From NCBI RefSeq assembly GCF_014775655.1, contig NZ_CP061274.1, positions 372,001-436,000 on the forward strand: 64,000 bases of DNA, read 5' to 3'. Origin of the DNA: Clavibacter zhangzhiyongii (GTDB lineage Bacteria; Actinomycetota; Actinomycetes; Actinomycetales; Microbacteriaceae). Shown here in pieces: positions 1-64,000 of the stretch. Under the pieces are notes generated by a model. That model was not told the DNA's origin. It did no database searches and saw nothing but the letters and a program-made list of their open reading frames with translations. Both the position numbers and the translations under genes were made by a program. Numbering within the stretch: the stretch's first letter is position 1; every line of letters begins with the position of its first letter.

Positions 1-442
1 TCGCCGGGGTGCGCAGGACGATGTCCACGCGGGTGGTCCGATCGGCCGGGGCGGTGAAGAAGCGGGCGTCCCGCCACTCGTTGACCTGGCCGAGGTACTG
101 GGAGACGGGGACCCCGCCGAGCGTGACCCAGGCGCGCAGCGTGTACCGCGTGGCGCGCTGCGACTCGAACCGGAAGGCGCCGTCGACGATGTCGACGCTC
201 TCGCCGAACGGGATGTCCGCGAACTCGAGCGAGACCTCGCCCGTGCGGACGAGGTTCCGGGGATCCACGCGGTCGAGGTAGACGCGGCCGACCACGGTGG
301 TGGTGAGCGGCTGGTCGGAGGCGCTGTCGGCCGTGGGCCGGGAGGCGTCCGCGGACGCGGGGGAGGCGGGGCCGCCCTGGACGGCGGTGATCAGGACCAG
401 GGCGATGAGGCCGACGAGACCGCGTCGGCGGACGGATGGCAT
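1..442 (-). CDS. secreted protein of unknown function, C-terminus outside the window
   Basis: Reading from an ATG at 442-440 gives at least 147 codons that run off the left edge. The N-terminus is a signal peptide: MPSVRRR, then a hydrophobic stretch (GLVGLIALVLITAV) and a small-residue region with a probable cleavage site near ASADA, so the product is exported. The mature part looks beta-rich, with VGRVYLDRV and FRFESQRATRYTLRAWV, compatible with a carboxypeptidase-regulatory or Ig-like fold, but I recognise no family. A GGAG ribosome binding site lies 7 nt before the start. Codon use matches the neighbours. The gene is divergent from the VOC gene at 646. Confidence 0.7.
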   Translation of the reverse strand, partial: MPSVRRRGLVGLIALVLITAVQGGPASPASADASRPTADSASDQPLTTTVVGRVYLDRVDPRNLVRTGEVSLEFADIPFGESVDIVDGAFRFESQRATRYTLRAWVTLGGVPVSQYLGQVNEWRDARFFTAPADRTTRVDIVLRTPA

Positions 443-645
443 GGGGTGCTCCGATGCTCGGACCGGCGGGATGCCGGTCGGGACACCGGTCTACTCCTGC
501 CGGACGCGCCCGTCACCACCCCCGTCGGGGGCGGTGGCAGCGCGCTCATCCGCGCCGCGGGTCCGCCCCGGCCCGGCCGCCACCCCCACCCCGCGCGTAC
601 GTTCGAGGGGAGCCGCCACCCGGGCGGCGGGAACGCGAGGACACC

Positions 646-1020
646 ATGCTCGGAGAGCACCCCGTCGGCGTCGTCCTGCTCACGCAGGACATGGCCGCAT
701 CACGCCGCTTCTACGCCGAGGCGCTCGGGCTGGAGGTCGCCGAGGAGTCCGAGTCGGCGATCACCTACCGGTCCGGCGGCACCGACCTCACGGTCACGAC
801 GAGCACGATCGGCTCGAAGGACGAGCAGACGAAGGCGTCGTGGAAGGTCCGGGACCTGCGGGCCGAGCTCGATCAGCTCGCCGAGCGCGGCGTCACCCCG
901 GAGGACTACGACACCGACGAGCTGAGGACCGTGGACGGCATCGCCGACCACGCGGGCGTCTGGTCCGCCTGGATTACCGACCCCGACGGCAACTCGCTCG
1001 GCATCGAGCAGCCGAAGTAG
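646..1020 (+). CDS. VOC family (glyoxalase/bleomycin-resistance fold) protein
   Basis: A 124-aa cytosolic single-domain protein of the vicinal oxygen chelate superfamily. The N-terminal signature is visible (VVLLTQDMAASRRFYAEALGLEV) and the C-terminal half ends with the usual DPDGNSLGIEQP strand. Length fits one VOC unit (two beta-alpha-beta-beta-beta modules). Such proteins act as dioxygenases, isomerases or drug-binding proteins; the substrate cannot be read from sequence. The ATG at 646 was chosen because it begins the conserved fold and has GCGAGG upstream; an in-frame extension to 436 would add unrelated residues. It appears monocistronic. Confidence 0.85.
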   Translation: MLGEHPVGVVLLTQDMAASRRFYAEALGLEVAEESESAITYRSGGTDLTVTTSTIGSKDEQTKASWKVRDLRAELDQLAERGVTPEDYDTDELRTVDGIADHAGVWSAWITDPDGNSLGIEQPK

Positions 1021-1178
1021 CGGGCGCGGGCGGGCGGTGCTCTCCGGCGCCGCCGCTCGGACCGGCACCCGCGGGGGTCTCCCGTACCGTGGGGCGCGGC
1101 CCGCCGACGGCGGCCGACCTCGCCCGTGCGTCGCACGGCGCGGCACCCGCACACCGCACACCCGCCCGGAGGCACCGC

Positions 1179-1841
1179 ATGGCCGCATCCACCCGCATCC
1201 TCCCGCCCCGCATCAGCGACCCGCGGCTCGACGACCTGGCCGACGGCGACCCGTCCGACCTCGACGCGCACGCGTCCTTCGAGCGGCTGCGCTTCGCCGA
1301 CGCCGACCTGAGCGACGCCGACCTCGTCGACATCGGGTTCGAGGAGTGCGCGCTCGAGCGCATACGCCTGCACGAGGCCGACCTCACCGCCGCGAGCCTC
1401 GTCGACGTGCTGGCCTCCCGTCTCGACGCGCCCGTGCTGAAGGCGCCGCGGATCCGGATGCGCGACGTGCGCCTCGAGGGCTCGCGCGTCGGATCCGCCG
1501 AGCTCTACGACGCGTCCCTCTCCTCCGTGCACATCGTCGACTGCCGGCTCGGCTTCGTGAACCTGCGCGGCTCGAAGATCACCGACCTGCTCATCACCGA
1601 CTGCGCCATCGAGGAGCTCGACCTCCGCGGCACCGCCGGCATGCGCGTCGCCTTCGAGCGCACCACCATCGGCACGCTCGACCTCGCGGACTCGTCGCTC
1701 ACGCACCTCGACCTCCGCGGCGCCGAGATCCACGACCTCGACACCCCCGACGGCCTCCGCGGCGCCGTGCTCGACTCGAACCAGCTCATGGCGCTCGGCC
1801 CGGTCTTCGCGCGGCACTTCCGCGTGCGCGTGGAGGACTGA
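1179..1841 (+). CDS. pentapeptide-repeat protein
   Basis: A 220-aa protein made of A(D/N)L-type repeats: ADLSDADLVDIGF, EADLTAASL, AELYDASL, GFVNLRGSKI, TLDLADSSLTHLDLRGAEI. This pattern predicts a right-handed quadrilateral beta-helix as in Qnr/MfpA-like proteins, though function varies widely in the family. No signal peptide or membrane segment is seen, so it is probably cytosolic. ATG 1179 has GGAGG at 1167-1171. It is convergent with the GNAT gene, with only 5 nt between the two stop codons. Confidence 0.8.
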   Translation: MAASTRILPPRISDPRLDDLADGDPSDLDAHASFERLRFADADLSDADLVDIGFEECALERIRLHEADLTAASLVDVLASRLDAPVLKAPRIRMRDVRLEGSRVGSAELYDASLSSVHIVDCRLGFVNLRGSKITDLLITDCAIEELDLRGTAGMRVAFERTTIGTLDLADSSLTHLDLRGAEIHDLDTPDGLRGAVLDSNQLMALGPVFARHFRVRVED

Positions 1842-1846
1842 GGCGC

Positions 1847-2368
1847 TCAGCCCGCCGGCGGGATCCGCAGCTTGAAGCCCACGTGCGACGGCGCGTAGCC
1901 GAGGCGCTCGTAGAAGCGGTGGGCGTCGACGCGGGCCGCGTCGGAGGTGAGCTGCACGAGCGCCGCGCCGAGGGCGGGCGCGGCGGCGTCCGCGACCCAG
2001 CGCATCATGGCGCCGCCGATGCCCGCGGAGCGCAGGTCGCTGCGGACCCGCACGGCCTCGACCTGGAGGCGGGAGCTGCCGCGGCGGGCCATCCCGGGGA
2101 TGAGCGTCAGCTGCAGCGTGCCGACGAGGGCCCCGTCGTCCGCGACCGCGACGAGCAGCTCGTTGCCGGCATCGGCGACGATGCGGTCGAGCGCGTCCCG
2201 GTAGCGGTCCGCGTCGTCGGGATCCGCGCGGTCGCCCCGCGAGGCGCTCACCGCGTCGTCGGCGAGCAGCGCCATGATGGGCCGGAGGTCGGCGGGCGTC
2301 GCGCGGCGGAGGACCACGCCGGGGACGCGCGCCGGGAGCGGGACGGGGAGGACGAGGGACGCGAGCAC
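1847..2368 (-). CDS. GNAT family N-acetyltransferase
   Basis: A 173-aa acetyltransferase that would move an acetyl group from acetyl-CoA to an amine. The acetyl-CoA pyrophosphate-binding motif A is clear (VRSDLRSAGIGGAMMRWV), followed by the typical end YERLGYAPSHVGFKL. The substrate is unknown. I chose GTG at 2368-2366 because GGGGAGGA lies 8-10 nt upstream and the start precedes VVLRRATPADL, the usual first strand of the fold. It stands 32 nt downstream of the alpha/beta hydrolase gene on the same strand and may be cotranscribed. Confidence 0.85.
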   Translation of the reverse strand: MLASLVLPVPLPARVPGVVLRRATPADLRPIMALLADDAVSASRGDRADPDDADRYRDALDRIVADAGNELLVAVADDGALVGTLQLTLIPGMARRGSSRLQVEAVRVRSDLRSAGIGGAMMRWVADAAAPALGAALVQLTSDAARVDAHRFYERLGYAPSHVGFKLRIPPAG

Positions 2369-2400
2369 GCCCCCATCCTCCCCGCCGCGGGGCGGCCGAC

Positions 2401-3195
2401 CTAGGCCGACGCCCTTCCGTACGCCCGCGCCACGTGCGCGAGCAGCCGCTCGGTGAGCATCCGGCGGAGGTCCATCGACGACCAGCCGTGATCCGCGCCC
2501 TCCACGGCGGTGAACGTCGCGCCCGGCATGAGCTCGCCGTACCGCGCGCCGTAGGCGACGGGCACGACCTCGTCCGCCGTGCCGTGCAGCACGTCGACCG
2601 GGCCGGGATACCCGGAGACCGGCCCGTAGACGTCGACGCCCGCCAGCACCTCGTCCGGGAAGGACAGGCCGAGGCCCATCCCCTGGATGTCGACGACGCC
2701 GCGCTCCCGGGCGGCCGCCAGCGGCTCGCCCATCACGCGGCCGTGCACCGCGACGTCGTCGACGACCACGCCGGCCGGCGACCACAGGGTGAGGCTCGCC
2801 ACGAGCTCCGGCGCACGCGCCGCGGCCAGCGCCGACTCGACGCCGCCGAGGCTGTGGGCGACGACGTGCACGGGGCCGTCCGCGTCCTCGGCGAGGACGC
2901 GGATCATCGCGGACACCTGGTCGACCTCGTCGAGGAGGCGCACGTCGGCGAAGTCGCCGTCGCTCACGCCGTGCCCGAGCCGGTCGTAGGCCCGGGCCGC
3001 CGTGCCGGACGCGGCCAGCGCCCGGGCGACGGGGACCCAGAGGCCGTGGCCGCCGGTGCCCGTGTCGCCGAAGCCGTGCACGAGGAGCGCCGCGGGGGAT
3101 CCGCGTCGCACCGTCCCGTGCTCCCAGCCGCGGATCGTGCGCCCGCCGTGGTCGAGGGCGAGCGGGGCGACGCGCGGCGTCGGGGCCGCGCCCAT
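2401..3195 (-). CDS. alpha/beta-fold hydrolase
   Basis: A 264-aa serine hydrolase. The oxyanion-hole region LLVHGFGDTGTGG, the cap-proximal YDRLGHGVSDG, the nucleophile elbow VVAHSLGG and a late acid/His pair (HGTADEV, EGADHGWSS) are all visible, so the catalytic triad looks complete. It resembles monoacylglycerol-lipase or lysophospholipase-like hydrolases; the substrate is unknown. Its ATG overlaps the stop codon of padC by one base (TGATG), so the two are translationally coupled and probably both controlled by the MarR operator upstream of padC. Confidence 0.87.
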   Translation of the reverse strand: MGAAPTPRVAPLALDHGGRTIRGWEHGTVRRGSPAALLVHGFGDTGTGGHGLWVPVARALAASGTAARAYDRLGHGVSDGDFADVRLLDEVDQVSAMIRVLAEDADGPVHVVAHSLGGVESALAAARAPELVASLTLWSPAGVVVDDVAVHGRVMGEPLAAARERGVVDIQGMGLGLSFPDEVLAGVDVYGPVSGYPGPVDVLHGTADEVVPVAYGARYGELMPGATFTAVEGADHGWSSMDLRRMLTERLLAHVARAYGRASA

Positions 3196-3725
3196 CAGTT
3201 CCGGCGGTCGGCGAACCCGGCCGGGAGGTCGGCGGGGGCGGTGTCGACGACCGTCTCGTCATCGGCGCCCACGAACTCGTCGAGCGTGATGTGCGCGAAC
3301 TCCGGCACCACGTAGATCGGGTAGGTGGGGCCCTCGTCGCGGTGCGCGCGCATCTCGTCGAGGTGATCGTTCTGGAAGAGCACGGTCTTCGAACCGTCCT
3401 CCTCCACCCAGCGCGGGAAGAAGATCGTGCCGTGCAGCACGCGGGCGGCGGGCACGATGTTGACGACGACGCTCGTGCCGGTCGGCTCGTTCCACGAGAC
3501 CTTGAAGACGCCCGCGGCGAGGGCGACGAGGTCGACCGTCTGGTCCTTGACCCAGCGGCCGCCCACCATGCCCGTGTGGATGCGGTAGTCGATGGTCGTG
3601 GCGTTCTTCACGTACATCTCGTACTGCCAGCCGTTGGCGTACGTGTAGATGAGGCGGTGGCCGACGAGGGGGCTGAGGTCCTGAGCGGGCACGGGGTGCT
3701 CGACGCTCGTGGTGATGGTGTCCAT
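3195..3725 (-). CDS. padC: phenolic acid decarboxylase
   Basis: A 176-aa enzyme that removes CO2 from p-coumaric, ferulic and caffeic acids to give vinylphenols, a detoxification step for plant-derived hydroxycinnamates. Family blocks are near diagnostic: [63 protein letters not shown] and [14 protein letters not shown]. Length matches known cytosolic PadC/PAD proteins. It is divergent from a MarR gene with a 21-bp dyad between them. A weak -10 (CAGGAT, 3733-3738 on the complement) ends 7 nt before the ATG, suggesting a nearly leaderless message. The downstream hydrolase overlaps it. Confidence 0.95.
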
Positions 3726-3746
3726 GCCGACGATCCTGTCACCGGA

Positions 3747-3767
3747 ATGCGTTTGTCACAAGCGCAT
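3747..3767. promoter_or_regulatory. dyad operator between padC and its MarR regulator
   Basis: Two 10-bp arms, ATGCGTTTGT and ACAAGCGCAT, flank the central C3757; 9 of 10 positions pair. Each arm carries a -35-like hexamer: TTGTCA on the + strand and TTGTGA on the complement, each spaced 17-18 nt from a -10 box (TATCCT 3777-3782 for the regulator; CAGGAT for padC). A dimer bound here would cover both -35 elements, fitting PadR/MarR-type repression relieved by phenolic acids. Binding is inferred. Confidence 0.75.
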
Positions 3768-3776
3768 CTGCCTGGG

Positions 3777-3782
3777 TATCCT
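3777..3782 (+). promoter_or_regulatory. -10 box of the MarR gene
   Basis: TATCCT ends exactly 6 nt before the ATG at 3789, so transcription would start at or next to the first base of the start codon (leaderless message). The -35 (TTGTCA, 3754-3759) lies inside the dyad operator. Confidence 0.6.
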
Positions 3783-3788
3783 CGGTGC

Positions 3789-4349
3789 ATGCCCTCCGAC
3801 CCGACCGACGCCGACCTGCGGGCCGTCGCCCGTCGCCTCGGCTCGGAGCTCGGGCCCTTCCGGCGCCGGCTGATGAACGCGAGCCGCAGCGCCGCCGACC
3901 TCCCCGACATCCCGGACGCGCAGGTCGAGGTGCTCCGCCGGCTGGAGGCGATCGGCTGGGCCACGCCCACCGCGCTCGGCCGGTCGCTCGGACTCGCGCG
4001 CTCCACCGTCAGCAACCTCATCCTCGCCATGGAGCGCGACGGGCTCGTCGACCGGCGCCTCACGAAGGGCGACGGGCGCAGCACCGAGGTGGGGCTCACG
4101 GATCACGCGCGCGAGCTGCTGCGCACCTTCGACCACTCGGCCGAGGCCGTGCTCGTCGCGGCGCTGCGCAGCCTCAGCGCGGGGGAGCGGCGCGACGTCG
4201 CCCGCGCCCTGCCCGCCCTCGAGGCGCTGCACGCGGCGATCGGCGGGTCGGGCGCGCGTCCCGATGCCCCGGCGTCCCCGGAGGGGGCCCCGGACGCGAC
4301 GACGCGCCGCCGGTCGGGGAGCGCATCCCCGTCCGACGGCGCGTCGTGA
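3789..4349 (+). CDS. MarR family transcriptional regulator, likely repressor of padC
   Basis: A 186-aa winged-helix protein. The HTH reads TPTALGRSLGLARSTVSNLILAMERDGLVDRRLTKGDGRSTEVGLTDHARELL, including the wing motif D-GR. The last ~30 residues (after HAAIGGSG) are low-complexity Pro/Ala/Ser/Arg; they are encoded by DNA that folds into the gene's own terminator hairpin. Divergence from padC and the shared dyad make local autoregulated repression of padC likely; MarR and PadR regulators commonly play this role. The ATG follows a -10 box by 6 nt with no ribosome binding site. Confidence 0.87.
   Translation: MPSDPTDADLRAVARRLGSELGPFRRRLMNASRSAADLPDIPDAQVEVLRRLEAIGWATPTALGRSLGLARSTVSNLILAMERDGLVDRRLTKGDGRSTEVGLTDHARELLRTFDHSAEAVLVAALRSLSAGERRDVARALPALEALHAAIGGSGARPDAPASPEGAPDATTRRRSGSASPSDGAS
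4299..4347 (+). terminator. long hairpin inside the 3' end of the MarR gene
   Basis: Outer arms 4299-4309 and 4337-4347 (ACGACGCGCCG / CGGCGCGTCGT) pair perfectly over 11 bp. Three more pairs and a 6-bp inner stem (CGGGGA / TCCCCG) continue to a 5-nt loop; only two mismatches interrupt. It ends two bases before the end of the stop codon and lies between convergent MarR genes. No T-tract follows. Confidence 0.65.
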
Positions 4350-4367
4350 CGTCCTGAGCCGGTCCGC

Positions 4368-4922
4368 TCAGCCCGCGTGGGCGGGCGTGCGGTCCCCGGT
4401 CCCGTGCTCCGCGTCAGCCGCGTCCGCGACCTGCACGTCCCCGCCCGCGTTGAGCCGCGCGAGGTAGCCGGCGAACGCGTCGAGGTCGGCGCGGCTCCAG
4501 TCGCCGAGGCGGCGGATCAGGCGGCTGCCGCCCTGCGCGTCGTCGGCCTCGATGCCCGCGCGGCCCGCCGGGGTGAGCGCGAGCACGCGCACCCGGCCGT
4601 CCTGCGCGTCGGCGCCGACCTCCACCAGCCCCAGGTCCTGGAGCTGGCGGAGCTGCCGGCTGACGACGCTGCGGTCGACGCCGAGCTGGTCGGCGACGGC
4701 GCTCGCGTGGGCGGCGCCGCAGCGGCGGATCACGCGGAGCATCTTGTAGCCGATGGGCGGCAGGTCCGGGTGGATCGCCGCGGCGGCCTCCCGGGTCGTC
4801 GTCCGGATCCGCTGGGCGAGGGCCGTCATCTGCTCCTCGACCTCGGCGATGCCCGCCGCGATCCCGTCGGGGACGTCGCCCGCGGCGACGCTCCCCGTGC
4901 CGGACAGGTCCTCGTCGTTCAT
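4368..4922 (-). CDS. MarR family transcriptional regulator of the adjacent efflux pump
   Basis: A 184-aa regulator. The winged HTH is clear: IGYKMLRVIRRCGAAHASAVADQLGVDRSVVSRQLRQLQDLGLVEVGADAQDGRVRVLALTPAGR. The N-terminal helix (VEEQMTALAQRIRTTTREAAAAI) would form the dimer interface. Its ATG overlaps the stop of the MFS transporter by one base (TGATG), so it is the second gene of the operon and probably represses its own promoter at 6698-6726. MarR proteins of this arrangement usually respond to the drug exported by the partner pump. Confidence 0.87.
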   Translation of the reverse strand: MNDEDLSGTGSVAAGDVPDGIAAGIAEVEEQMTALAQRIRTTTREAAAAIHPDLPPIGYKMLRVIRRCGAAHASAVADQLGVDRSVVSRQLRQLQDLGLVEVGADAQDGRVRVLALTPAGRAGIEADDAQGGSRLIRRLGDWSRADLDAFAGYLARLNAGGDVQVADAADAEHGTGDRTPAHAG

Positions 4923-6670: not shown

Positions 6671-6683
6671 GATCCTCCGGGTA

Positions 6684-6699
6684 GTTGACTGCAAGCAAC
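6684..6699. promoter_or_regulatory. imperfect dyad, likely MarR operator of the efflux operon
   Basis: GTTGACTGCAAGCAAC matches its own reverse complement at 12 of 16 positions and lies across the predicted transcription start of the efflux operon. A second perfect inverted repeat, ACTGT and ACAGT around 5 nt, sits in the promoter spacer (6706-6720). Either could bind the MarR repressor. Confidence 0.6.
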
Positions 6700-6726
6700 C
6701 ATATGACTGTGGTGGACAGTTGTCAA
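6698..6726 (-). promoter_or_regulatory. sigma-70 type promoter of the efflux operon
   Basis: On the complement, TTGACA (6726-6721) and TATGGT (6703-6698) are separated by exactly 17 nt. This is the best consensus promoter I found in the window. The predicted start near 6691 gives a leader of about 20 nt that contains the GGAGGA ribosome binding site. Confidence 0.8.
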
Positions 6727-6825
6727 CCATCTCGGGCGGCAGCGGAGACGGCTCATGCCGCGAGGCCGTGGATCCGCCGACCGCGGGACCCGTCGCGGAG
6801 CCCCGGGAGTAGACCGGAGGGGTGC

Positions 6826-6843
6826 GCCGGTCGACCGACCGGC
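6826..6843. promoter_or_regulatory. perfect dyad upstream of the VOC gene
   Basis: Arms GCCGGTCG and CGACCGGC pair perfectly around 2 nt, ending about 10 nt before the ribosome binding site of the gene at 6865. It could be an operator or a leader hairpin; no regulator is adjacent other than the MarR/MFS pair. Confidence 0.4.
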
Positions 6844-6864
6844 CTCGATGCGAGGAGGAATCCC

Positions 6865-7224
6865 ATGGTCGATTCGGTGGCGACGGTCTGGCTGCCCGTG
6901 CAGGACATGACGCGCGCGGTGGCGTTCTACCGCGACACGCTCGGGCTCACGGTGAAGAGCGAGGACGCGGACTGGAGCGAGATCGACGCGGACGGCCTGA
7001 TGATCGGCCTCAACGCGCGCGAGGAGACGAGCGGCTCGAAGGGCGGCGGCGCGGTCATCTCGTTCACGCCCGAGGGCTCCATCGAGGACGAGCTCGAGCG
7101 GCTCCGCGGTCGCGGCGCCGAGATCACGGGCGAGGTCAGCGACCACGAGTGGGGCCGCATCCTCCCGTTCCAGGACAGCGAGGGCAACGACCTCCAGCTG
7201 TACACGCCGCCCGTCGGCGGCTAG
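6865..7224 (+). CDS. VOC family (glyoxalase-like) protein
   Basis: A 119-aa single-domain protein. The opening VATVWLPVQDMTRAVAFYRDTLGLTV and the closing ILPFQDSEGNDLQLYTPP are the two conserved VOC strands; the E of the D-EGN segment is commonly a metal ligand. Substrate unknown; small cytosolic VOC proteins near efflux genes are often detoxification or antibiotic-binding proteins. GAGGAGGAA precedes the ATG at an ideal distance, one of the strongest ribosome binding sites here. It is divergent from the MFS operon. Confidence 0.87.
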   Translation: MVDSVATVWLPVQDMTRAVAFYRDTLGLTVKSEDADWSEIDADGLMIGLNAREETSGSKGGGAVISFTPEGSIEDELERLRGRGAEITGEVSDHEWGRILPFQDSEGNDLQLYTPPVGG

Positions 7225-7237
7225 TCGCGCGGAGCGC

Positions 7238-7543: not shown

Positions 7544-7552
7544 CTGACGACC

Positions 7553-47809: not shown

Positions 47810-49057
47810 TCAGTCGGCGCGCGTGGAGGCGGGCGGCGGGGCCGGCTTCGGCGCCGCGGGGACGGCGGGTGTGCGCGTCGCGGGGGCCTTCGGCTTCGTG
47901 GTCGGCTTCGCGGGGGTCTTCGCCTTCGCGGTCGCCTTCGCCTTCGCCTTCGCGGGGGTCTTCGCCTTCGCGGGTGCGGCGCTCTTCGCCTTCGCCGGCG
48001 CCTTCGCCTTCGCCGGCGCCTCGGCCTTCGCGGGCGCCTCGGTCTCCGTGGGCGCCTCCGGCTCCGGGGGGATCGGGTCCCCGTCCGCCGCGAGGAAGAC
48101 CGTCCCGGCTCCCGCGAGCCGCGCGCGCATCACCTCGAGGGCCTGCGGGTTCTCGTCCACCAGCACGAAGCGACGGCCGAGCTCGCGGGCCGCGGCGCCC
48201 GTGGTGCCGGATCCGGCGAAGAAGTCGAGCACCCAGTCGCCCGGCCGGCTCGACGCCTGCACGATGCGGCGCAGCACGCCGAGCGGCTTCTGCGTCGCGT
48301 AGCCGGTCTTCTCGCGGCCCGTGGGGGAGACGATCGTGTGCCACCACACGTCCGTCGGGAGCTTGCCGCGCTCGCGCTTCTCGGGCGTCACGAGGCCGGG
48401 CGCCATGTAGGGCTCGCGGTCGACGCCCTCGGAGTCGAAGCGGTAGCGGATCGGGTCCTTGACGTAGACGAGGATCGTGTCGTGCTTCGCCGGCCAGCGC
48501 CGTCGGGACTTCGCGCCGTAGTCGTACGCCCACACGATCTCGTTGAGGAACGAACGGCGCCCGAAGAGCGCGTCGAGCACGACCTTGGCGTAGTGCACCT
48601 CGCGGTAGTCGAGGTGCAGGTAGAGGGTGCCGGTGGGATCCAGCAGCCGCCACGCCTCGATGAGCCGCGGCTCGAGGAAGTCCCAGTAGTCGGCGAACGA
48701 GTCGTCGAAGCCGTAGAGGAGGCCCTTGACGGAGTCGTAGCTGCGGCCCTGGAACCCGACGCGCGCGCCGGGCGGCCGGACGGGCTCGGGGGTCGCGGTG
48801 CTCGCGGGCGCGAGCGCGGCGGAAGCGGCAGCGGCAGCGGCGGCGCCGGCGGCCGGGGGATCGGCGTCGGGTGCGGGATCCGGATCCGGGCTCCGCGCCA
48901 CCGTCATGTTCTGCCGCTCCTGCGTGCGGCCGGTGTTGAACGGCGGATCCAGGTAGATCAGCTGGAAGGCGCCGTCGGGGAGCGCGCGGACGGCCTCGAG
49001 GTTCTCGCCGTGGATCACGAGGTCGGGGCCGTCGGGGGTCCAGGCGGGCGGGGGCAC
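47810..49057 (-). CDS. orphan beta-class DNA methyltransferase with a histone-H1-like tail
   Basis: A 415-aa methyltransferase. Motif IV DPPFNTG is at 37-43 and motif I DFFAGSGTTG at 278-287, the IV-before-I order of beta-class adenine-N6 / cytosine-N4 enzymes. Between motifs IV and X an Ala/Pro insert (residues 55-95) is present. The C-terminal ~85 residues are repeats of Ala-Lys-Ala and Pro (EAPAKAEAPAKAKAPAKAKS...TPAKAKAKATAKAKTP), as in linker histones, likely nonspecific DNA binding. No restriction endonuclease is adjacent. TAACCT ends 7 nt before GTG 49057. Recognition site unknown. Confidence 0.9.
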   Translation of the reverse strand: MPPPAWTPDGPDLVIHGENLEAVRALPDGAFQLIYLDPPFNTGRTQERQNMTVARSPDPDPAPDADPPAAGAAAAAAASAALAPASTATPEPVRPPGARVGFQGRSYDSVKGLLYGFDDSFADYWDFLEPRLIEAWRLLDPTGTLYLHLDYREVHYAKVVLDALFGRRSFLNEIVWAYDYGAKSRRRWPAKHDTILVYVKDPIRYRFDSEGVDREPYMAPGLVTPEKRERGKLPTDVWWHTIVSPTGREKTGYATQKPLGVLRRIVQASSRPGDWVLDFFAGSGTTGAAARELGRRFVLVDENPQALEVMRARLAGAGTVFLAADGDPIPPEPEAPTETEAPAKAEAPAKAKAPAKAKSAAPAKAKTPAKAKAKATAKAKTPAKPTTKPKAPATRTPAVPAAPKPAPPPASTRAD

Positions 49058-52893: not shown

Positions 52894-55155
52894 ATGGGGA
52901 TCCAGACGAGCCTCGACCAGGTCGCGCAGGCCGCGCGCATCCTCGACGTGATGCAGGAGGCCGACGAGCTCACGGTCGCCGCCAGCCGCGACGGCGGCGG
53001 ACGCGCGGTGCGGCTCCTCGCCCGCGCCGCCGCGGATCCCGCCGACCAGCTCACCGCCGTCGCCGCCATCCACGCGCTCGCCCAGGTCTTCGACGAGGCC
53101 GCCGACCTCGCCCTCGTCGCGCTCCTCGACCACGAGGTCCGGTGGATCCGCGAGCACGCCGCCTGGGCGTTCGGCACCCGCCTGCCGCGCTTCGACGCGG
53201 TCTCGGGCCTCGTCGCCATGGTGGTCGAGGGCGGCTTCCCGGGCATGCTCGCGCAGCGGACGCTGCAGCAGTGGGCGGGATCCGCGCCCGACCACCTCTC
53301 CCTCGCGCTCGAGAACGCGCTGCTCGGCGTCCGCGGCGACGGCGCCCGGTCGCGTCTCGTCGAGACCGTGGGACTCGTGCGGGGCCGGATCCCGGAGCGC
53401 GTGCTCCTCCGCGTCGCGCAGGATCCCCGCGAGGGCCCGCTCACCCGCTCCGCCGCCGTCGCCGCGCTCGGCGACCGGCCCGCGGGCGAGGCGACCCTCG
53501 GCATCGTCTCCGACATCGCGCGCGGCGACGACGAGGTGGCCGCGGTCGCGCGCCTCGCCGTCCTCGACATCGCGCGCCAGCACGGCGACCACCCGGCGGC
53601 GCCCGAACGTCCGGGCCTCACGGTCGTCCAGCTCTTCCTCCACGCCGACATCGACGCGGGCCTCACCCACGTGGGCGCCGGCGACAACGGCGGCATCGCG
53701 ACGCTGCTCGTGCGCCTCGGCGACGCGCTCGTGGATCCCGCGGGCCCGGCCGGCGACGCCCCCGGGGCGCACGACGTGACCGCCACGACCGTCGCCGACC
53801 GCCCGGTCGACCGCGTCATCACCCTCTCCCGCGGCACCGCCGACCAGGCGCTCGCCTCCCTCGCGCGCGTGACCGCGGGCGGCGACGGGCACGTCTTCGC
53901 GCACATCCCGCTCCTCGGCGGCCCGCGCTCGCTGCCCGAGGCGTGGCCGCACCGCGTCGAGGCCGAGCGGGGGATCCGCCGCGTGCTCCGCGCGGCCGGC
54001 CGCGTCGACGCCGTGCACCTCCGCATGGCCGACGTGGGCACGCTCGCCGCCTCCACGGTCGCCCGCGAGCTCGGCATCCCCGTCGTCTTCACGGTGGCGC
54101 CGGATCCGCACGGCGTCGTCGACGCGCTCGACCGCTCCGGCGCCCTCACCCGCGACGGCTTCGGCGCGGTCGACGCGCGCGAGCACTACTGGTTCCGCGT
54201 GCGGCTCGTGCAGCGCCTGGCCGCCGACGCGGCGCACACCGTCCTCTTCCCGCGGCCGGAGCTCAAGCGCGACATGCGCCGGCTCGTCGGCATCGACGTG
54301 GATGCGCACCCCGAGCGCCACAGCGTCGTCGCCGAGGGCATCGACGTCGCCGCCATCGAGCGCTCCCGCGACGACGCGCTGCTCGGCGCCGACGCGGAGG
54401 GCGCGCCCGCCCGCGCGTTCGTCGAGCTCGACGAGCTGCTCGCCGGCCTCCCCGCCGAGCGCCGCGGCCTCCCGCTCGTCGTCTCCGTGGGCCGCCTCGC
54501 GCGGGTCAAGGGCATGGCGTCGCTCGCGCACGTCTGGGCGGCGGATCCCGCGCTCCGGTCCCGCGCGAACCTCCTCGTCGTGGGCGGCGACCTCGACGCG
54601 CCCTCCGCGGAGGAGCGCGACCAGCTCGCGCGGATCCTCGAGGCCGTGCCCGGCGCGGATCCCGCCCACGCCGCCGACCCCCGCGCCGCCGCCGCGGACG
54701 CCGCGCGCCACGGCCTCCTCCTCGCCGGCCACCGCGGCAACGACACCGTCACGCGCTGGCTCGCCGCCGTCCGCTACGGCCGCCCCGGGCTCACCGCACC
54801 GGGCGGCGCGTACGCGTGCGCGAGCATCAAGGAGGAGTTCGGCGTCGCCCTCCTCGAGGCGATGTCGATGGGCCTGCCCGTCGTCGCGCCGGCGTCCGGC
54901 GGACCCGCGACCTACGTGGAGGACGGCGTCACGGGCCTCCTCGTCGACACGACGGATCCGGCCGCGCTCGCCGTCGGCATCGGCCGCGCGCTCGACATCG
55001 CGGCCGGTCCCGAGGCGGACGCCGCCGCCGACCGCGCCCGCGCGATGGTCGCCCGCACCTTCACCATCCAGGCCATGGCGGGCACCCTGTCCCGCGTCTA
55101 CCGCGACGTCGCCGCAGCCGACGACCGAACCCTCTGGGAGCTCAGCGCCTCATGA
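52894..55155 (+). CDS. GT4-type glycosyltransferase with N-terminal HEAT-like helices
   Basis: A 753-aa protein. The first ~220 residues are helical repeats (LLARAAADPADQLTAVAAIHALAQVFDEAADLALVALLDHEVRWIREHAAWAFG), like HEAT/armadillo solenoids. Then a GT4 fold: LFLHADIDAGLTHVGAGDNGGIATLLVRLGDAL (donor-side glycine loop as in sucrose-phosphate synthases), and SVGRLARVKGMASL, ASIKEEFGVALLEAMSMGLPVVAPASGGPATYVEDGVTGLLVD (E-x7-E motif). Acceptor unknown. AAGGGG precedes ATG 52894; a GTG at 52840 would add 18 residues. Coupled (ATGA) to the next glycosyltransferase. Confidence 0.83.
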   Translation: MGIQTSLDQVAQAARILDVMQEADELTVAASRDGGGRAVRLLARAAADPADQLTAVAAIHALAQVFDEAADLALVALLDHEVRWIREHAAWAFGTRLPRFDAVSGLVAMVVEGGFPGMLAQRTLQQWAGSAPDHLSLALENALLGVRGDGARSRLVETVGLVRGRIPERVLLRVAQDPREGPLTRSAAVAALGDRPAGEATLGIVSDIARGDDEVAAVARLAVLDIARQHGDHPAAPERPGLTVVQLFLHADIDAGLTHVGAGDNGGIATLLVRLGDALVDPAGPAGDAPGAHDVTATTVADRPVDRVITLSRGTADQALASLARVTAGGDGHVFAHIPLLGGPRSLPEAWPHRVEAERGIRRVLRAAGRVDAVHLRMADVGTLAASTVARELGIPVVFTVAPDPHGVVDALDRSGALTRDGFGAVDAREHYWFRVRLVQRLAADAAHTVLFPRPELKRDMRRLVGIDVDAHPERHSVVAEGIDVAAIERSRDDALLGADAEGAPARAFVELDELLAGLPAERRGLPLVVSVGRLARVKGMASLAHVWAADPALRSRANLLVVGGDLDAPSAEERDQLARILEAVPGADPAHAADPRAAAADAARHGLLLAGHRGNDTVTRWLAAVRYGRPGLTAPGGAYACASIKEEFGVALLEAMSMGLPVVAPASGGPATYVEDGVTGLLVDTTDPAALAVGIGRALDIAAGPEADAAADRARAMVARTFTIQAMAGTLSRVYRDVAAADDRTLWELSAS

Positions 55156-56528: not shown

Positions 56529-56597
56529 ATGACCGCACGTCGCCTCGCGCGCCTCGGTCGCCCCCAGTCTCGTCAACGGATCCAGGTGCCCTCGTGA
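56529..56597 (+). CDS. 22-codon leaderless ORF coupled to a small membrane protein
   Basis: ATG 56529 lies 5 nt after TAGACT (56518-56523). The product would be a basic 22-residue peptide (MTARRLARLGRPQSRQRIQV...). Its stop TGA overlaps the GTG of the next gene by 4 nt. The next gene has no ribosome binding site of its own, so ribosomes finishing this ORF would supply its translation. Probably a translational leader, not a functional peptide. Confidence 0.5.
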   Translation: MTARRLARLGRPQSRQRIQVPS

Positions 56598-56767: not shown

Positions 56768-56835
56768 TCCGCGGCGTCGCGCCGCGCCCCGAGCGCGGAA
56801 ACACCCCCGACACACGCCCCCGTTAGTCTGCGGCC

Positions 56836-58551: not shown

Positions 58552-59486
58552 TGCCCATGCTGTCGCGCATCGCCGAGTCGCTGTTCTGGATCGGCCGCTA
58601 CATCGAGCGGTCGGACGGAACCGCCCGCATCCTCGACGTGCACCTCCAGCTCCTGCTCGAGGACCCGTGGATCGACGAGGACACCGCCTGCCGCTCCCTC
58701 CTCAGCGTGATGGGCAGCGACGTGCCCTCCGAGGACGTGCTCGGCCGCCACGACGTCCTCGCGCTGCTCGCGGTCGACCGCACGCAGCCCGCCTCCATCG
58801 CCTACTCGCTCGGCGCCGCGCGCGAGAACGCACGGCGGGCCCGCGAGATCGTCTCCAGCGAGCTGTGGGAGTGCCTCAACACGACGCGCGCCCGCATGCC
58901 GCGGAAGATCGCCAACGACCGCGTGCACGAGTTCTTCGGCTGGGTGCGCGAGCGCTCGGCCCTCGCGGTCGGGCTCGTCGAGTCCGGCACCAGCCGCGAC
59001 GAGGCGTGGCAGTTCTTCACCCTCGGCCGATCCATCGAGCGCGCCGACATGACCGCCCGCCTCCTCGCGACCCGCGCCCTCACCGAGGCCAGCGGCCCGT
59101 CGTGGACCACGATCCTCCGCTCCTGCGGCGCGTACGAGGCGTACCTCCGCACGTACCGCGGGGTGCCCAGCGCGCGCAACGCGGCCGAGTTCCTGCTGCT
59201 CGACCGGCTGTTCCCGCGGTCGATCACGCACTCCATCCGCCGCGCCGAGCAGTGCCTGCACGACATCGAGCCGCGTACCGACCGCCTCGGGGTGTCCGAC
59301 CAGGCGCAGCGGCTGCTCGGGCAGATCCGGAGCGAGCTGGAGTACCGGCCGATCCAGGAGATCCTCGACGACCTCCCGCGCTTCATGGACGCCGTGCAGG
59401 AGGCCACCTCCGCCACCAGCGAGGCCGTCCGCCAGCGCTACTTCCCCACCAACGCGGCACCGAGCTGGGTAGGAGAGAACTCGTGA
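58551..59486 (+). CDS. alpha-E domain protein
   Basis: A 311-aa all-helical protein: MLSRIAESLFWIGRYIERSDGTARILDVHLQLLLED, the invariant opening of the family, then FFTLGRSIERADMTARLLATRAL, which repeats the I-E-R-A-D motif. Always found with the ATP-grasp type 2 and transglutaminase-like proteins, probably as the third subunit of one pathway. The ATG shares a base with the stop of the ATP-grasp gene (TGATG) and the gene overlaps the next by 4 nt. Confidence 0.92.
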   Translation: MPMLSRIAESLFWIGRYIERSDGTARILDVHLQLLLEDPWIDEDTACRSLLSVMGSDVPSEDVLGRHDVLALLAVDRTQPASIAYSLGAARENARRAREIVSSELWECLNTTRARMPRKIANDRVHEFFGWVRERSALAVGLVESGTSRDEAWQFFTLGRSIERADMTARLLATRALTEASGPSWTTILRSCGAYEAYLRTYRGVPSARNAAEFLLLDRLFPRSITHSIRRAEQCLHDIEPRTDRLGVSDQAQRLLGQIRSELEYRPIQEILDDLPRFMDAVQEATSATSEAVRQRYFPTNAAPSWVGENS

Positions 59487-60328
59487 ACCGCCTGCGCATC
59501 ACCCACCGGACCGGCTTCCACTACGAGGGCGAGGTCACCGCGTCGTACAACGAGGCGCGGATGCTGCCCGTGTCGAGCGAGAACCAGTTCGTCCTGTACT
59601 CGAACCTCGACATCCAGCCGAAGCCGGGGCACCACACCTACGTCGACTACTTCGGCACCCGCGTCTCCTCGTTCGAGATCCTGAGCCCCCACCGCTCGCT
59701 CGAGCTCACGGCCACGAGCCTCGTCGAGGTGCGGCCGCGCACGCACGAGCCGCACCAGCGCGGCTGGGACGACCTCGCGGTCGAGGTGCAGCGCGCGACC
59801 GAGCACGTGGAGCAGGTCGCGCAGACCGGGCGCACCGAGCCGCACGAGGAGGTCGTCGCGCTCGCGGAGGAGATCGCGGGCGGCGCGGGGACCCCGTGCG
59901 AGGCGGCCGCGGAGATCGCGCGGGCCATCGGCGAGAAGGTCGAGTACATGGCCGGCGTCACGAGCGTGCAGTCGACCGCGCGCGAGGCGTGGGAGCAGGG
60001 TCGGGGCGTCTGCCAGGACATCACGCACATCGTCATCGGCGCGCTCCGGCACGTCGGGATCCCCGCGCGCTACGTCAGCGGCTACCTGCACCCGAAGCCG
60101 AACGCGGCCGTGGGCGAGACCGTCACGGGCGAGTCGCACGCGTGGGTCGAGTGGTTCTGCGGCGAGTGGCGCGGCTGGGATCCGACGAACCTCATCGACA
60201 TCGGCGACCGCCACGTGCTCGTCGGCCGCGGCCGCGACTACCGCGACGTCGCCCCGCTGCGCGGCATCTACGCGGGGCCGTTCCGGTCGAAGCTGTTCGT
60301 GCGGGTGGAGATCACGCGCGAGTCCTGA
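59483..60328 (+). CDS. transglutaminase-like protease/amidase
   Basis: A 281-aa protein: N-terminal beta domain (RLRITHRTGFHYEGEVTASYNEARMLPVS) and a papain-fold core with the triad Cys in GRGVCQDITH, His in GESHAWVEWFCG and Asp in GWDPTNLIDIG. This set matches the bacterial transglutaminase-like family that is paired with ATP-grasp type 2 proteins. Overlaps the alpha-E gene by 4 nt; third gene of a conserved operon. Confidence 0.92.
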   Translation: MNRLRITHRTGFHYEGEVTASYNEARMLPVSSENQFVLYSNLDIQPKPGHHTYVDYFGTRVSSFEILSPHRSLELTATSLVEVRPRTHEPHQRGWDDLAVEVQRATEHVEQVAQTGRTEPHEEVVALAEEIAGGAGTPCEAAAEIARAIGEKVEYMAGVTSVQSTAREAWEQGRGVCQDITHIVIGALRHVGIPARYVSGYLHPKPNAAVGETVTGESHAWVEWFCGEWRGWDPTNLIDIGDRHVLVGRGRDYRDVAPLRGIYAGPFRSKLFVRVEITRES

Positions 60329-60366
60329 CCCGCGGCGGCCGGGCGGGCCCGCCCTAGTCTGGATCC

Positions 60367-61257
60367 ATGCCCGACGACGAGCGCTCCACCGACGGAGCCG
60401 ACCACCGCACCCTCGTGGACGCCGAGGGCGTGACCCTCCACTACTACGTGTGGGAGGCGGAGCGTCCGCGGGCCGTCGTGCACATCGCGCACGGCGTCGG
60501 CGAGCACGCGCTGCGCTACGCCCGGCTCGCGCGGGAGCTGAACGCGATGGGGTTCACGGTCGCGGCCGACGACCACCGCGGGCACGGCGCCACGGGCCTC
60601 GGGCACCTGGGCATCGGCGTGCTGGGGCCGCGGCGGCACCGGGCGGCGCTCGACGGGATCCAGCTGGTCAGCGAGCAGCTCCGCCGCGACCTGCCCGACC
60701 TCCCGCTCGTGCTCCTCGGCCACAGCTGGGGCGCGCTCCTCGCGCAGCGCATCGTCGCGCGGGCGTCGCACCTGTACGCGGGGCTGGTGCTGAGCGGGGC
60801 GACGCTCGCGATGCCCGGCGTCGTCAACACGGGCGACCTCAACAAGCGCTGGCGGCACCCGGCGGCATCGGGCTTCGAGTGGCTCTCGCGGGATCCGGAG
60901 GCGCAGCGCGCGTTCGGCGCCGACGACCGCAACTTCGACGTCAACGCGCTGAAGCCGTACCGGATGCGCGACTCCGTGCAGATCATGGGCCGTCCGCCGC
61001 GGAAGCTCGCCACCGACCTGCCCGTGCTGATCCAGGGCGGGGAGGAGGACTCGCTCGGAGGCCGCCGCGGGATGCAGCTCCTCGCGCGCGACTACAGCCG
61101 CCGCTCGCGCCTCAGCGACGTGCTGCTGATCATCTACCCGGGCGCGCGCCACGAGATCTACAACGAGACGAACCGCGACGAGGTGGTCGCGGACCTCCGG
61201 AGCTGGCTGGAGTCGCGCGTGGTGCCGGCGGCTCCCGCGGAGGGGGAGCCCGCGTGA
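60367..61257 (+). CDS. alpha/beta hydrolase, monoacylglycerol lipase-like
   Basis: A 296-aa serine hydrolase: HIAHGVGEHALRYARLARELNAMGFTVAADDHRGHGATG (the G-x-G-E-H and D-H-R-G-H-G signatures of lysophospholipase L2/MGL), nucleophile LLGHSWGALLAQ, LPVLIQGGEEDSLGG (Asp) and YPGARHEIYNE (His). Likely hydrolyses monoacylglycerols or lysophospholipids. TAGTCT (60355-60360) and the 6-nt spacer GGATCC precede the ATG. Confidence 0.9.
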   Translation: MPDDERSTDGADHRTLVDAEGVTLHYYVWEAERPRAVVHIAHGVGEHALRYARLARELNAMGFTVAADDHRGHGATGLGHLGIGVLGPRRHRAALDGIQLVSEQLRRDLPDLPLVLLGHSWGALLAQRIVARASHLYAGLVLSGATLAMPGVVNTGDLNKRWRHPAASGFEWLSRDPEAQRAFGADDRNFDVNALKPYRMRDSVQIMGRPPRKLATDLPVLIQGGEEDSLGGRRGMQLLARDYSRRSRLSDVLLIIYPGARHEIYNETNRDEVVADLRSWLESRVVPAAPAEGEPA

Positions 61258-61748
61258 CCGACGCGGGACCGGCGCTCCGCCCCGCGCGCGCCGACGACCT
61301 GCCGTTCCTCGAGGACATGCTGCTCGCGTCGATGGACTGGCGCGGTGACGGGTCCATGACGCGGGAGCGGATGCTGGCCACCCCCGAGATCGCGCACTAC
61401 GTGGCGGGCTGGCCGCGCGCCGGCGACGTGGGCGTGGTCGCGGAGGTCGACGGCGATCCCGTGGGCGCCGGGTGGGCGCGCCTCTTCGCGGACGACGACC
61501 GCGGCTACGGGTTCGTCGCGGCGGACGTCCCGGAGCTGGGCATGGCGCTCGTCCCGGCGGCACGCGGCCGGGGAGTCGGGCGGCGGATGCTCGTGGCGCT
61601 CGTCGAGGCGGTCCGCGCATCGGGTGCGCCGGGCGTGAGCCTCAGCGTGGAGGACGGGAACGACCGTGCGCGGTCACTGTACGAGTCGCTCGGGTTCGCG
61701 GCCGTGGGGCGCGAGGGCGGATCCGACGTGCTGCTGCTCCGCCTCTGA
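61254..61748 (+). CDS. GNAT family N-acetyltransferase
   Basis: A 164-aa acetyltransferase: LRPARADDLPFLEDMLLASMDW, then GMALVPAARGRGVGRRMLVALVEAV (motif A) and VSLSVEDGNDRARSLYESLGFAAVGREGGSDVLL (motif B). Substrate unknown. GTG 61254 overlaps the lipase stop by 4 nt (GTGA), so they form an operon. Confidence 0.87.
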   Translation: MTDAGPALRPARADDLPFLEDMLLASMDWRGDGSMTRERMLATPEIAHYVAGWPRAGDVGVVAEVDGDPVGAGWARLFADDDRGYGFVAADVPELGMALVPAARGRGVGRRMLVALVEAVRASGAPGVSLSVEDGNDRARSLYESLGFAAVGREGGSDVLLLRL

Positions 61749-61754
61749 CGCGCG

Positions 61755-61793
61755 CCGCCCTCCGGCCCGCGGGAGGCGGGACGGAGGGCGGCG
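61755..61793. terminator. hairpin between convergent genes
   Basis: GCCGCCCTCCG (61755-61765) pairs perfectly with CGGAGGGCGGC (61783-61793); the loop holds the palindrome CCCGCGGG. Lies between the GNAT gene and the surface-protein gene. Confidence 0.7.
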
Positions 61794-61809
61794 GCGTCGC
61801 GGTGCCGGG

Positions 61810-64000
61810 TCAGGCTCGCGTCGGGCGGCCCGTGCGCGCGCGGCGTCGGCGTCGGGCGTCGAGCGCGGCCGCGGATCCGGCCGCCAGCAGCAGCGCCGCG
61901 AGGGCGAGCGTCGCCGCTGGCGAGGACCCGGTGCGCGGCAGCGACCCGCGGAGTCCGGCGGCCGCGCTCGCGCCCGAGGTGCCGGCCGGGCTGGAGCCGT
62001 CCGCCGACAGGGCGCCGGGGGACGCGGAGCCCCCGCCGGCCGACGACGGTCCGCCGGGTGCGGCGCCGCCCGAGCCGGACGGGCCGGGCGTCGTGCCGGG
62101 GTCGCCGGATCCGCCCGGGTCGACGGCCACCGCGGCCGTCGTGACCACGGCCGCGGACACGTCCGCGTCGAGGCCCGACGCGTCGACCAGGTGCAGGCCG
62201 GTGACCGTGCGGGACGCGCCCGCGGTCACGTCCTCGGCGAGCACCGCGGATCCGCCGTCGGGCAGCGCGAACCGCGTGCCCGGGGCGATGTCGCCGGCCG
62301 CGAGCACGGCGCCGGCGATGCTGCCGCCGTCGCTGGAGACGCGCGCGGTGCCGCCGTCGACGTCGACCCGGAGGCCCCGGATGGCGACCGCGAGGCGGCT
62401 GCCCGGGTAGAGCGCGACGTCGTCGAGGGCGGCGCTGCCGGATGCGCCGCTCAACGCGAGGCGGATGCCGGTGGCGCGGATCTGGCCCGCGGCGCCGTCG
62501 CCGACGGTGGTCCCGGTGTCGGTCCCCGAGTCGGCGGCGGTCGCAGCGGAGGCGCGGAGCGCGTCCGGCGCGACCGCGGATGCGGCCGGCGAGGCGGTCG
62601 ATGCCGTCCCCGCGTCGTCCGGCCGGGCCACGGGCGCCGCCGTGACGGCGCTCGGCCCCGTCGCGCGGATCCCGTACGCCGACCAGCCGGTGGGCGCCGC
62701 GTCCGGCGTGATCGGGGTGGGCGACGGCGCCGGATCCGGCGCGGGCGTCGCGCCGCCGCCCGCCGCCACGGTCACGACGCCCAGCCGCACCTCGGGGTGG
62801 CGGCCGGTGAGGTCGCGGTAGTGCAGCGCCGTGAGGGTCACCGTGCCGTCGGCCGCGACCGACCGCTCCCCGAAGCGGACCTCGACGCGCGGGGTGCCGT
62901 GCTCGTCGACGCCGGTGTGGAGGTCGGTGGCGGTGTCGATCCACACGCCGTTCACGAACACCGCGTTCCCCGCGTCGGCGAACGACACGGTCATGGCGCC
63001 CGCGGCGGAGACGGCCGCGTGGAGGCCGGCGACCCGGAGGGCCGGCCAGCGGTAGTCGGCGAGCGGATCCGTCGCGGCGTCGGGCACCTGCCGGAACGCG
63101 CCCACGTCGACCGTCGCGGTGCCCGCGGCGTCGCCCGTGCCGATGTCGACGGCGACGCCCGTCGCGGTGTCGGCATCCGTGCCCGTGCCGGTGACGGCGG
63201 CCGCCGCCGCGTGCGGGGCCTGCGCCGACGCGCGCGGCTGCGGCGCGACGAGCACCGAGCCGTCCGCCGCGGTGACGCCGACCCCGTACGCGCCCGTGAC
63301 CCGCCCGGCCGCAGCCGGCACGACGACCGTGCCGAGGCGCACGTCCGGGTGCGCGCCCGTCAGGTCGCGGTAGTGGATCGCGGTCACCGTGACGGTGCCG
63401 TCCGCCGCCGTCTCGTGCTCGCCGAACGCCACGGTGACGCGGGGCGCGCCCTGCTCGTCGACGCCCGTGTAGAGGTCGGTGGTGGTGTCGATCCAGCGGC
63501 CGTCCACGAAGACGGCGCTGCCGGGATCCGCGAACTCGGTCGACACGGCGCCCGCGGGCGTGACCGTGGCGGTGAGCCCGTAGACGCGGAACGCCGTCCA
63601 GCGGTACTCGGCGAGCGGATCCGCGGGGGCGCCCGGCAGCTGCTCGAACGAGCCGACGCCGATCGTGGTGGTGCCGGCCGCGTCGGTGGCGACGCGCACG
63701 GATGCGGCGTGCTCGGCGGATCCGTCCGTCGCGGCGAGCGCGTCGGCCGTGGCCTGCCGGTCGAGGCCGGCGACGCGCGGCTGCCCGTCGATCACGCGCG
63801 TGCCGTCGGGGGCCGTGACGGTGACGCCCGTCGCGACGCGGCCGGCGGCGGGCGCGGGATCCGGCGCCGGGGCCGGATCGGGTGCGGGTGCGGGGGTCGG
63901 CGCAGGGGTGGGCGAGGCCGACGGCGTCGGGACGGGCACGGGGGATGCCGCGCACGTCACGGATCCCGCGCGCACGCGCCAGATCTCCGACGCCCCGGCC
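61810..64000 (-). CDS. LPxTG-anchored surface protein with a tandem repeat domain, N-terminus outside the window
   Basis: At least 730 codons, open at the right edge (the frame continues through EIWRVRAGSVTCAASP). After a Pro/Ala/Thr linker there are two copies of a ~150-residue beta-rich domain; compare DPLAEYRWTAFRVYGL...VFVDGRWIDTTTDLYTGVDEQGAP...HYRDLTGAHPDVRLG with DPLADYRWPALRVAGL...VFVNGVWIDTATDLHTGVDEHGTP...HYRDLTGRHPEVRLG. A third, diverged domain follows, then a Gly/Ser/Pro stalk and the sorting signal LPRTG, hydrophobic AATLALAALLLAAGSAAAL and RRRRRARTGR. Exported and covalently attached to the wall by sortase. GATCC-rich codons throughout. Confidence 0.85.
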   Translation of the reverse strand, partial: AGASEIWRVRAGSVTCAASPVPVPTPSASPTPAPTPAPAPDPAPAPDPAPAAGRVATGVTVTAPDGTRVIDGQPRVAGLDRQATADALAATDGSAEHAASVRVATDAAGTTTIGVGSFEQLPGAPADPLAEYRWTAFRVYGLTATVTPAGAVSTEFADPGSAVFVDGRWIDTTTDLYTGVDEQGAPRVTVAFGEHETAADGTVTVTAIHYRDLTGAHPDVRLGTVVVPAAAGRVTGAYGVGVTAADGSVLVAPQPRASAQAPHAAAAAVTGTGTDADTATGVAVDIGTGDAAGTATVDVGAFRQVPDAATDPLADYRWPALRVAGLHAAVSAAGAMTVSFADAGNAVFVNGVWIDTATDLHTGVDEHGTPRVEVRFGERSVAADGTVTLTALHYRDLTGRHPEVRLGVVTVAAGGGATPAPDPAPSPTPITPDAAPTGWSAYGIRATGPSAVTAAPVARPDDAGTASTASPAASAVAPDALRASAATAADSGTDTGTTVGDGAAGQIRATGIRLALSGASGSAALDDVALYPGSRLAVAIRGLRVDVDGGTARVSSDGGSIAGAVLAAGDIAPGTRFALPDGGSAVLAEDVTAGASRTVTGLHLVDASGLDADVSAAVVTTAAVAVDPGGSGDPGTTPGPSGSGGAAPGGPSSAGGGSASPGALSADGSSPAGTSGASAAAGLRGSLPRTGSSPAATLALAALLLAAGSAAALDARRRRRARTGRPTRA

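Follow-up and report, generated by a model that had tools for sequence, protein, structure and literature searches.

In the Neisseriaceae, eight dialects of the DNA uptake sequence (DUS) share a CTG core, one of them differing by a one-base insertion, and copy numbers rise to as many as 5,918 in 2.4 Mb, with two dialects in some genomes (PMC3630211). In cyanobacteria, highly iterated palindromes (HIP) reach about 500–2500 copies per Mb; these words change between lineages and track methyltransferases, and in two Synechococcus the leading octamer is GGGATCCC (PMC4390886). Natural transformation is on record for two Actinobacteria from freshwater, Rhodoluna lacicola and Aurantimicrobium photophilum (PMC11577799), and in Micrococcus luteus it requires Flp pili (PMC6370729). 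We analyzed a stretch of 64,000 bases from Clavibacter zhangzhiyongii (contig NZ_CP061274.1, positions 372,001 to 436,000; hereafter the window), in which the palindrome GGATCC is strongly over-represented. Rhodoluna lacicola and Aurantimicrobium photophilum belong to the same family as Clavibacter.

The window has a G+C content of 75.0%, not 73% as given in a preliminary description made from the sequence, and contains 157 copies of GGATCC. Exactly 20 of these lie within the first 9.6 kb, where about 20 had been counted by eye, and the ten sites that had been listed were right within 6 bases (261, 1450, 1491, 1861, 2220, 3097, 6338, 6599, 6770 and 7321). Base composition alone predicts 19.8 copies per window, or the ~3 per 9.6 kb that had been proposed. 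Under an order-2 Markov model of the window, the observed/expected ratio was 4.34 (z 28.4), which was the top z value of any hexamer with 20 or more copies (both strands); in 464 kb of the same genome the excess over order 2 was 3.55-fold. Models of order 3 and order 4 gave 2.03-fold and 1.32-fold, respectively, but both were trained on GGATCC itself, and order 4 therefore says little about a six-letter word. The flanks were mildly biased, with C before 91 and G after 90 of the 157 sites. Spacing, which the preliminary description had singled out for a check, showed no periodicity at 10–12 bases or modulo 3 over 800 gaps. The sites and the local arrangements referred to here are as follows.

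261..63966, no strand (palindrome): 157 dispersed GGATCC sites, from the position list, hexamer rank and codon-aware expectation
1450..1455, no strand: a single GGATCC site in the position list; the next site begins at 1491
53034..53426, no strand: a locally dense run of five GGATCC sites in the position list (53034, 53144, 53278, 53387 and 53421)
60361..60366, no strand: a GGATCC site between gene calls, immediately before the gene call at 60367 (positions and gene calls); it had been described earlier as a spacer, and is real

We then resampled synonymous codons over the 71 called genes of the window. GGATCC was found 48, 42 and 47 times in the three codon phases, against 3.0, 21.1 and 3.8 expected, corresponding to a 15.7-, 2.0- and 12.2-fold excess by phase and to 4.9-fold in total (z 25.4), far from a ratio near 1. 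The 20 remaining sites were not wholly within a gene call (non-coding DNA amounts to 6,643 bases). As the preliminary description had it, the word is therefore used in all three phases and outside genes, and it takes in many of the codons GGA and GAT, which are otherwise rare: GGA-TCC holds 48 of the 104 GGA codons of the called genes, and G-GAT-CC holds 47 of the 111 GAT codons. The composition-matched control word GGTACC showed no excess in the same resampling (6 observed, 6.8 expected). Because the excess is seen in all phases above the synonymous expectation while GGTACC stays at expectation, GGATCC acts at the level of DNA.

Comparison between Clavibacter species, which are ~10% apart, allowed us to follow individual codons; four genomes were pooled against one reference, and the comparisons are hence not independent. 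The GGA codon was identical in 105 of 124 cases inside GGA-TCC and in 36 of 105 elsewhere, and the GAT codon in 96 of 111 cases inside GGATCC and in 50 of 127 elsewhere. Copies of GGATCC are thus kept from mutating away, a contrast that lies in the rare codons and not in whole sites. Together with the phase counts, this codon conservation bears out the initial proposal that selection or bias acts on the DNA itself rather than through codon usage, and makes the comparison with HIP1 drawn there an apt one, as a DNA-level word present in all codon phases with conserved codons. Across 27,532 hexamer positions in five aligned genomes, GGATCC was present in one, two, three, four and five genomes at 21, 12, 11, 24 and 40 places, respectively, and inferred terminal gains (21) and losses (24) were about equal. 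The gains of GGATCC mostly showed two or more differences (15 of 21), more often than those of the 14 palindromes used as controls (171 of 486; p 0.0018). Replacements between species hit all three positions of the half-site and included many transversions (A3-G 38, G2-C 30, A3-C 22, G1-C 20 and G1-A 4).

The genome containing the window (G000, a single contig of 3.10 Mb) carries 5,368 copies of GGATCC, or 1.73 per kb. We drew 398 genomes from the family; all 10 Clavibacter among them contained 5,368–6,455 copies each, and a contig of C. lycopersici (L205), which aligns at 91–94% DNA identity, had 2.54 per kb. Outside Clavibacter, a few genomes stood out sharply. The Microbacterium genome G164, for example, contained 6,067 copies, against 783–1,632 in its seven congeners in the draw, and G151 had 2,680 copies in 1.9 Mb, against 137–592 in four congeners. 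Among 396 genomes from across the phylum, none but G000 and G164 exceeded about 0.9 per kb. Counts in 198 Microbacterium genomes were bimodal, with 10 at 1.54–2.23 per kb, 188 at or below 0.58 and none between. Genome sizes other than that of G000 were taken to 0.1 Mb, so that densities are rounded. The G-numbered genomes were assigned to genera by comparing their methyltransferases with those of named loci: Humibacter by L168 (100% to G057), Microbacterium by L186, L191, L211 and L214 as the best matches of four g85 proteins, and Clavibacter by the DNA identity to L205.

Word-poor congeners of G164 were found to carry words of their own. In 40 kb, counting both strands, GGATGCC occurred 61 times in G215 (8.7 expected) and 74 times in G328 (11.1 expected), and GGATGCTG occurred 25 times in the Microbacterium genome G380 (1.3 expected). 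When DNA from 71 genomes was scored against a double null of Markov and codon models, ATCC/GGAT was the commonest of all tetramers within strongly enriched words, being found in 30 of the 71; the sampled stretches were small (20–84 kb per genome), and a 40-kb sample of G227 missed a word that is present genome-wide at 1.77 per kb. Of 80 named loci, the 72 with more than 12 kb of sequence were analyzed. GGATGCC, or a form of it one base longer, was one of the three leading words in all 3 Microbacterium, all 3 Agromyces and 2 of the 7 Cryobacterium, as well as in one Humibacter, one Salinibacterium and one Rhodoglobus. GGATGCG led in Herbiconiux and Pseudoclavibacter, GGAGGCGC in Frigoribacterium and GGACGCC-like words in three Rothia loci, while loci of the Arthrobacter group had unrelated words such as CGACGTCG. 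AGGATCC and GCAGGATC led in G004 and G087, which are distant kin of Frigoribacterium.

Whole-genome counts showed GGATGCC at 1.22–1.65 per kb in 6 of 8 Microbacterium and 1.37–1.89 per kb in 4 of 5 Humibacter, and all 12 of the 398 genomes with more than 1.0 GGATCC per kb had at most 0.37 GGATGCC per kb, so that the use of the two words is nearly exclusive. GGATGCC was symmetric between strands (349 and 335 copies in 23 stretches; chi-square 13.8, 23 degrees of freedom), was found in genes 303 times in sense and 296 times in antisense, and had a density of 1.37 per kb outside genes and 1.49 inside. Taken together, these data show that the GGATCC of Clavibacter represents one dialect in a word set widespread in the family, whose alternative words are of similar density and in many cases share GGAT; the pattern recalls the self tags by which some bacteria tell their own DNA. 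The preliminary description, which considered GGATCC alone, had identified a real word, but gave an incomplete picture of a finding that goes beyond what had been claimed: closely related genomes use different words of one kindred set, to which GGATCC belongs. We found no earlier description of the word or its dialects in the literature searched, in which subscription journals and preprints were sparsely covered.

Individual loci of Micrococcales showed further strongly iterated words (both strands throughout). These were CATCGATG in L193 (24 copies, 1.2 expected), AGGAGGCGC in Frigoribacterium (L173; 20, 0.4 expected), GGAGGCC in Leifsonia sp. Leaf336 (L184; 50, 8.9 expected), AGGACGCC in Rothia (L142; 11, 0.6 expected), CGACGTCG in Paenarthrobacter (L159; 28, 3.3 expected), CTCGAG in Sinomonas (L149; 94, 36.4 expected) and ACCGGT in Yaniella (L172; 52, 16.8 expected). 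Two loci, L252 (G049) and L155 (Arthrobacter sp. HY1533), had long words many times in 20 kb, CACTCAAG with 13 copies and GACAGGCTC with 16, which are probably local repeats and not dialects. The record L186, titled Planococcus sp. APC 4015, combines a G+C content of 71% with a Microbacterium-like methyltransferase and the word GGATGCC, and is probably a mislabelled Microbacterium.

GGATCC belongs to the high-GC resident chromosome. In 400 kb sampled evenly from G000, its density climbed with G+C content: six 4-kb bins at 0.66–0.70 had 0.17 per kb and 23 bins above 0.76 had 2.47 per kb, whereas base composition alone is calculated to predict a slight fall. A 20-kb stretch from 2.75 Mb (L242, G000:C1:2750001-2770000) had 0.30 per kb, and the 4-kb bins at 1848001, 2608001 and 788001 were nearly without the word; such stretches are mostly low in G+C and probably represent acquired DNA. 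In the Clavibacter phage CN1A we counted 14 copies of GGATCC in 50 kb, compared to 19 expected (observed/expected 0.74), and this lack of strong avoidance led us to reject a reading of GGATCC as a restriction site. Relative to expectation, host-type words stood between 0.74 and 1.82 in four phages and between 4.3 and 7.0 in samples of the host genera, whose dialect may differ from that of the exact hosts. Two phages of Microbacterium foliorum, BAjuniper (L222) and Bernstein (L223), had 0 and 1 GGATCC where about 14 and 16 were expected, which suggests a restriction system cutting GGATCC in that host.

The dialects, their switching and the scarcity of the words in phage and low-GC DNA argue for a trans-acting factor that would read a short word on chromosomal DNA, with a specificity that differs between related species. 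Among factors for which dialects have a precedent, the uptake system of the Neisseriaceae appears to be the best fit, and we tentatively favor, at somewhat less than even probability, the reading of GGATCC as an uptake-sequence-like self word recognized by a factor of switching specificity. Such a factor may act in natural transformation, either when DNA is taken up or when it recombines; for Clavibacter, we infer these steps. Uptake or fixation would be more frequent for DNA with the local word, favoring new copies, foreign DNA would stay poor in the word, and a change in the factor would let the genome drift to a new dialect. ComEC was present in 80 of 80 genomes tested. ComEA, considered as a receptor, was recovered at 10 of 60 loci with a custom motif and looked standard, and this lead was dropped.

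Several observations weigh against an uptake role. ComEC does not discriminate, as word-poor genomes carry it too, and we identified no receptor for the word. The literature searched, with the sparse coverage given above, yielded no account of Clavibacter being naturally transformable. The words are 6–8 bases long, palindromic in Clavibacter, and shorter than the 10-base DUS of Neisseria. Whole GGATCC sites were intact in 71–80% of pairs, which is not above some control palindromes such as GAGCTC (75–83%), and in a one-step test there was no excess of recent gains (2, with 3.0 expected) and only a weak reduction in losses (39, with 50.8 expected, p 0.05). In the DNA sampled, 41 of the 71 genomes had no GGAT word at the threshold used. 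The small low-GC members of the family G013, G030 and G059 had no clear GGAT word in 20-kb samples, and proven competence and the word have therefore not yet been seen together. Finally, G126 is raised in both words, with 0.86 GGATCC and 1.37 GGATGCC per kb.

The main rival to the uptake reading is a structural or repair protein: the word could be the binding site of a chromosome-organizing, replication or repair protein of species-variable specificity, with sites kept for structure or maintenance and no role in uptake. The phase-independent excess, the codon conservation, the dialects and the scarcity in low-GC and phage DNA would fit this equally well. However, the sites lack periodic spacing, the symmetry of GGATGCC excludes strand-polar sites for that word, and we know of no structural site with species dialects replacing one another at such density; we consider this explanation rather unlikely. 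Codon or amino-acid bias has next to no probability. Coding hexamers such as CGAGCA and AGCAGC are likewise common in this GC-rich genome, but GGATCC exceeds synonymous resampling in total and in every phase, and Microbacterium stretches at 70–72% G+C have 0.12–0.35 copies per kb compared to 2.82 in their congener G164, and codon bias was rejected. Biased mutation or very-short-patch repair could generate GGATCC without selection, and the presence of the excess in every phase and outside genes speaks for it. Against it stand the spread of replacements, many of them transversions, over all half-site positions and the far better preservation of rare codons inside the word than elsewhere, and the PF00145 5-methylcytosine methylases that usually partner such repair are missing from several word-rich genomes. 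This candidate was not supported, and we regard it as very improbable.

In a HIP-like mechanism, the word would be marked by a cognate DNA methyltransferase, and mutations creating it would be fixed by repair directed by methylation or by some other process that depends on it. This reading draws on the similar density and lineage variability of cyanobacterial HIP words and on their association with methyltransferases (PMC4390886). The preliminary description had named a methyltransferase of the window as a candidate partner:

47810..49057, minus strand: DNA methyltransferase of PF01555, 415 amino acids as called (Pfam N6_N4_Mtase, 149.7 bits on a longer open reading frame; 31 orthologues aligned)

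DNA alignments first hinted at a region common to G164 and the window and lost in word-poor congeners. Protein alignment of the 31 orthologues showed it to be conserved in all, and the candidate was abandoned: the gene occurs across the family, word-poor genomes included, and its recognition region is the same in word-rich and word-poor genomes, for example in G164 (2.8 per kb in the sample) and G215 (0.12). The GGATCC-rich G151 has weaker PF01555 matches only (70.7 and 61.3 bits). PF00145 is present in G151 and absent from G000, four other Clavibacter (5 of 10 Clavibacter in all), G164 and G126; PF02086 is absent from G000 and G164; and PF02384, with two members in G000 and one in G164, is absent from 5 of 10 Clavibacter. 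No methyltransferase of these four families, the only ones searched, tracks GGATCC. MutL (PF01119) was found in 0 of 11 genomes, while a control was detected in 11 of 14, and the published MutS/MutL model of HIP therefore cannot apply as written. Since none of the four families tracks the word and MutL is missing, a HIP-like mechanism is weakened here, and we judge it improbable. In the Clavibacter form of the methyltransferase at 47810..49057, the DPPF motif is followed by a long insertion of low complexity, and the copy in the window has a C-terminal tail rich in alanine, lysine and proline that is missing from most others.

If GGATCC is a self tag for DNA exchange, the family offers many natural experiments in which the tag was replaced within a genus, so that the receptor should be findable by association alone, and exchange among soil, plant and freshwater bacteria would become predictable. 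It is possible, although we consider it less likely than not, that the Microbacteriaceae and perhaps other Micrococcales harbor an independent radiation of self words, in which a receptor would read a short GGAT-cored word and switch specificity within Microbacterium (GGATGCC, GGATCC and GGATGCTG), each switch rewriting thousands of sites and setting a barrier to DNA exchange between species. This would be, to our knowledge, the first uptake-sequence dialect system in Gram-positive bacteria. If the word is not a self tag, each genome still has thousands of sites that are maintained by selection or drive for some protein, in bacteria where MutL was not found. In practice, the density of GGATCC flags low-GC stretches that are probably acquired.

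Among known systems, Chi and the FtsK-orienting polar sequences (KOPS) resemble the words described here in being short, frequent and chromosome-wide. Chi and KOPS are strand-polar, whereas GGATGCC was symmetric in the 23 stretches and GGATCC is a palindrome, and we rejected polarity of this kind. HIP1 and its variants are likewise short palindromes with lineage-specific alternatives, one being GGGATCCC, and the 1.73 per kb of G000 falls within their density; they differ in being tied to cognate methyltransferases and a MutS/MutL model (PMC4390886), in place of which we found neither a tracking family among the four nor MutL. The DUS of the Neisseriaceae has at least 10 bases, is not palindromic, has the known receptor ComP and serves a proven uptake, whereas the words here have 6–8 bases, are palindromic in Clavibacter and belong to Gram-positive actinobacteria. 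DUS and uptake signal sequences (USS) have about 9–12 bases and are non-palindromic, and neither GGATCC, with its mild C and G flanks, nor GGATGCC and GGATGCTG, with 7–8 bases, have this form. In common with DUS and USS, the words show a copy number far above expectation, dialects around a GGAT core and scarcity in phages and low-GC stretches. As with the DUS of the Neisseriaceae (PMC3630211), copies run into the thousands, close relatives use dialects built on a common core, one dialect arises from a single inserted base and some genomes have two dialects; the likeness extends to the symmetry between strands found here and to the rarity of the words in phage sequence and in DNA of low G+C.

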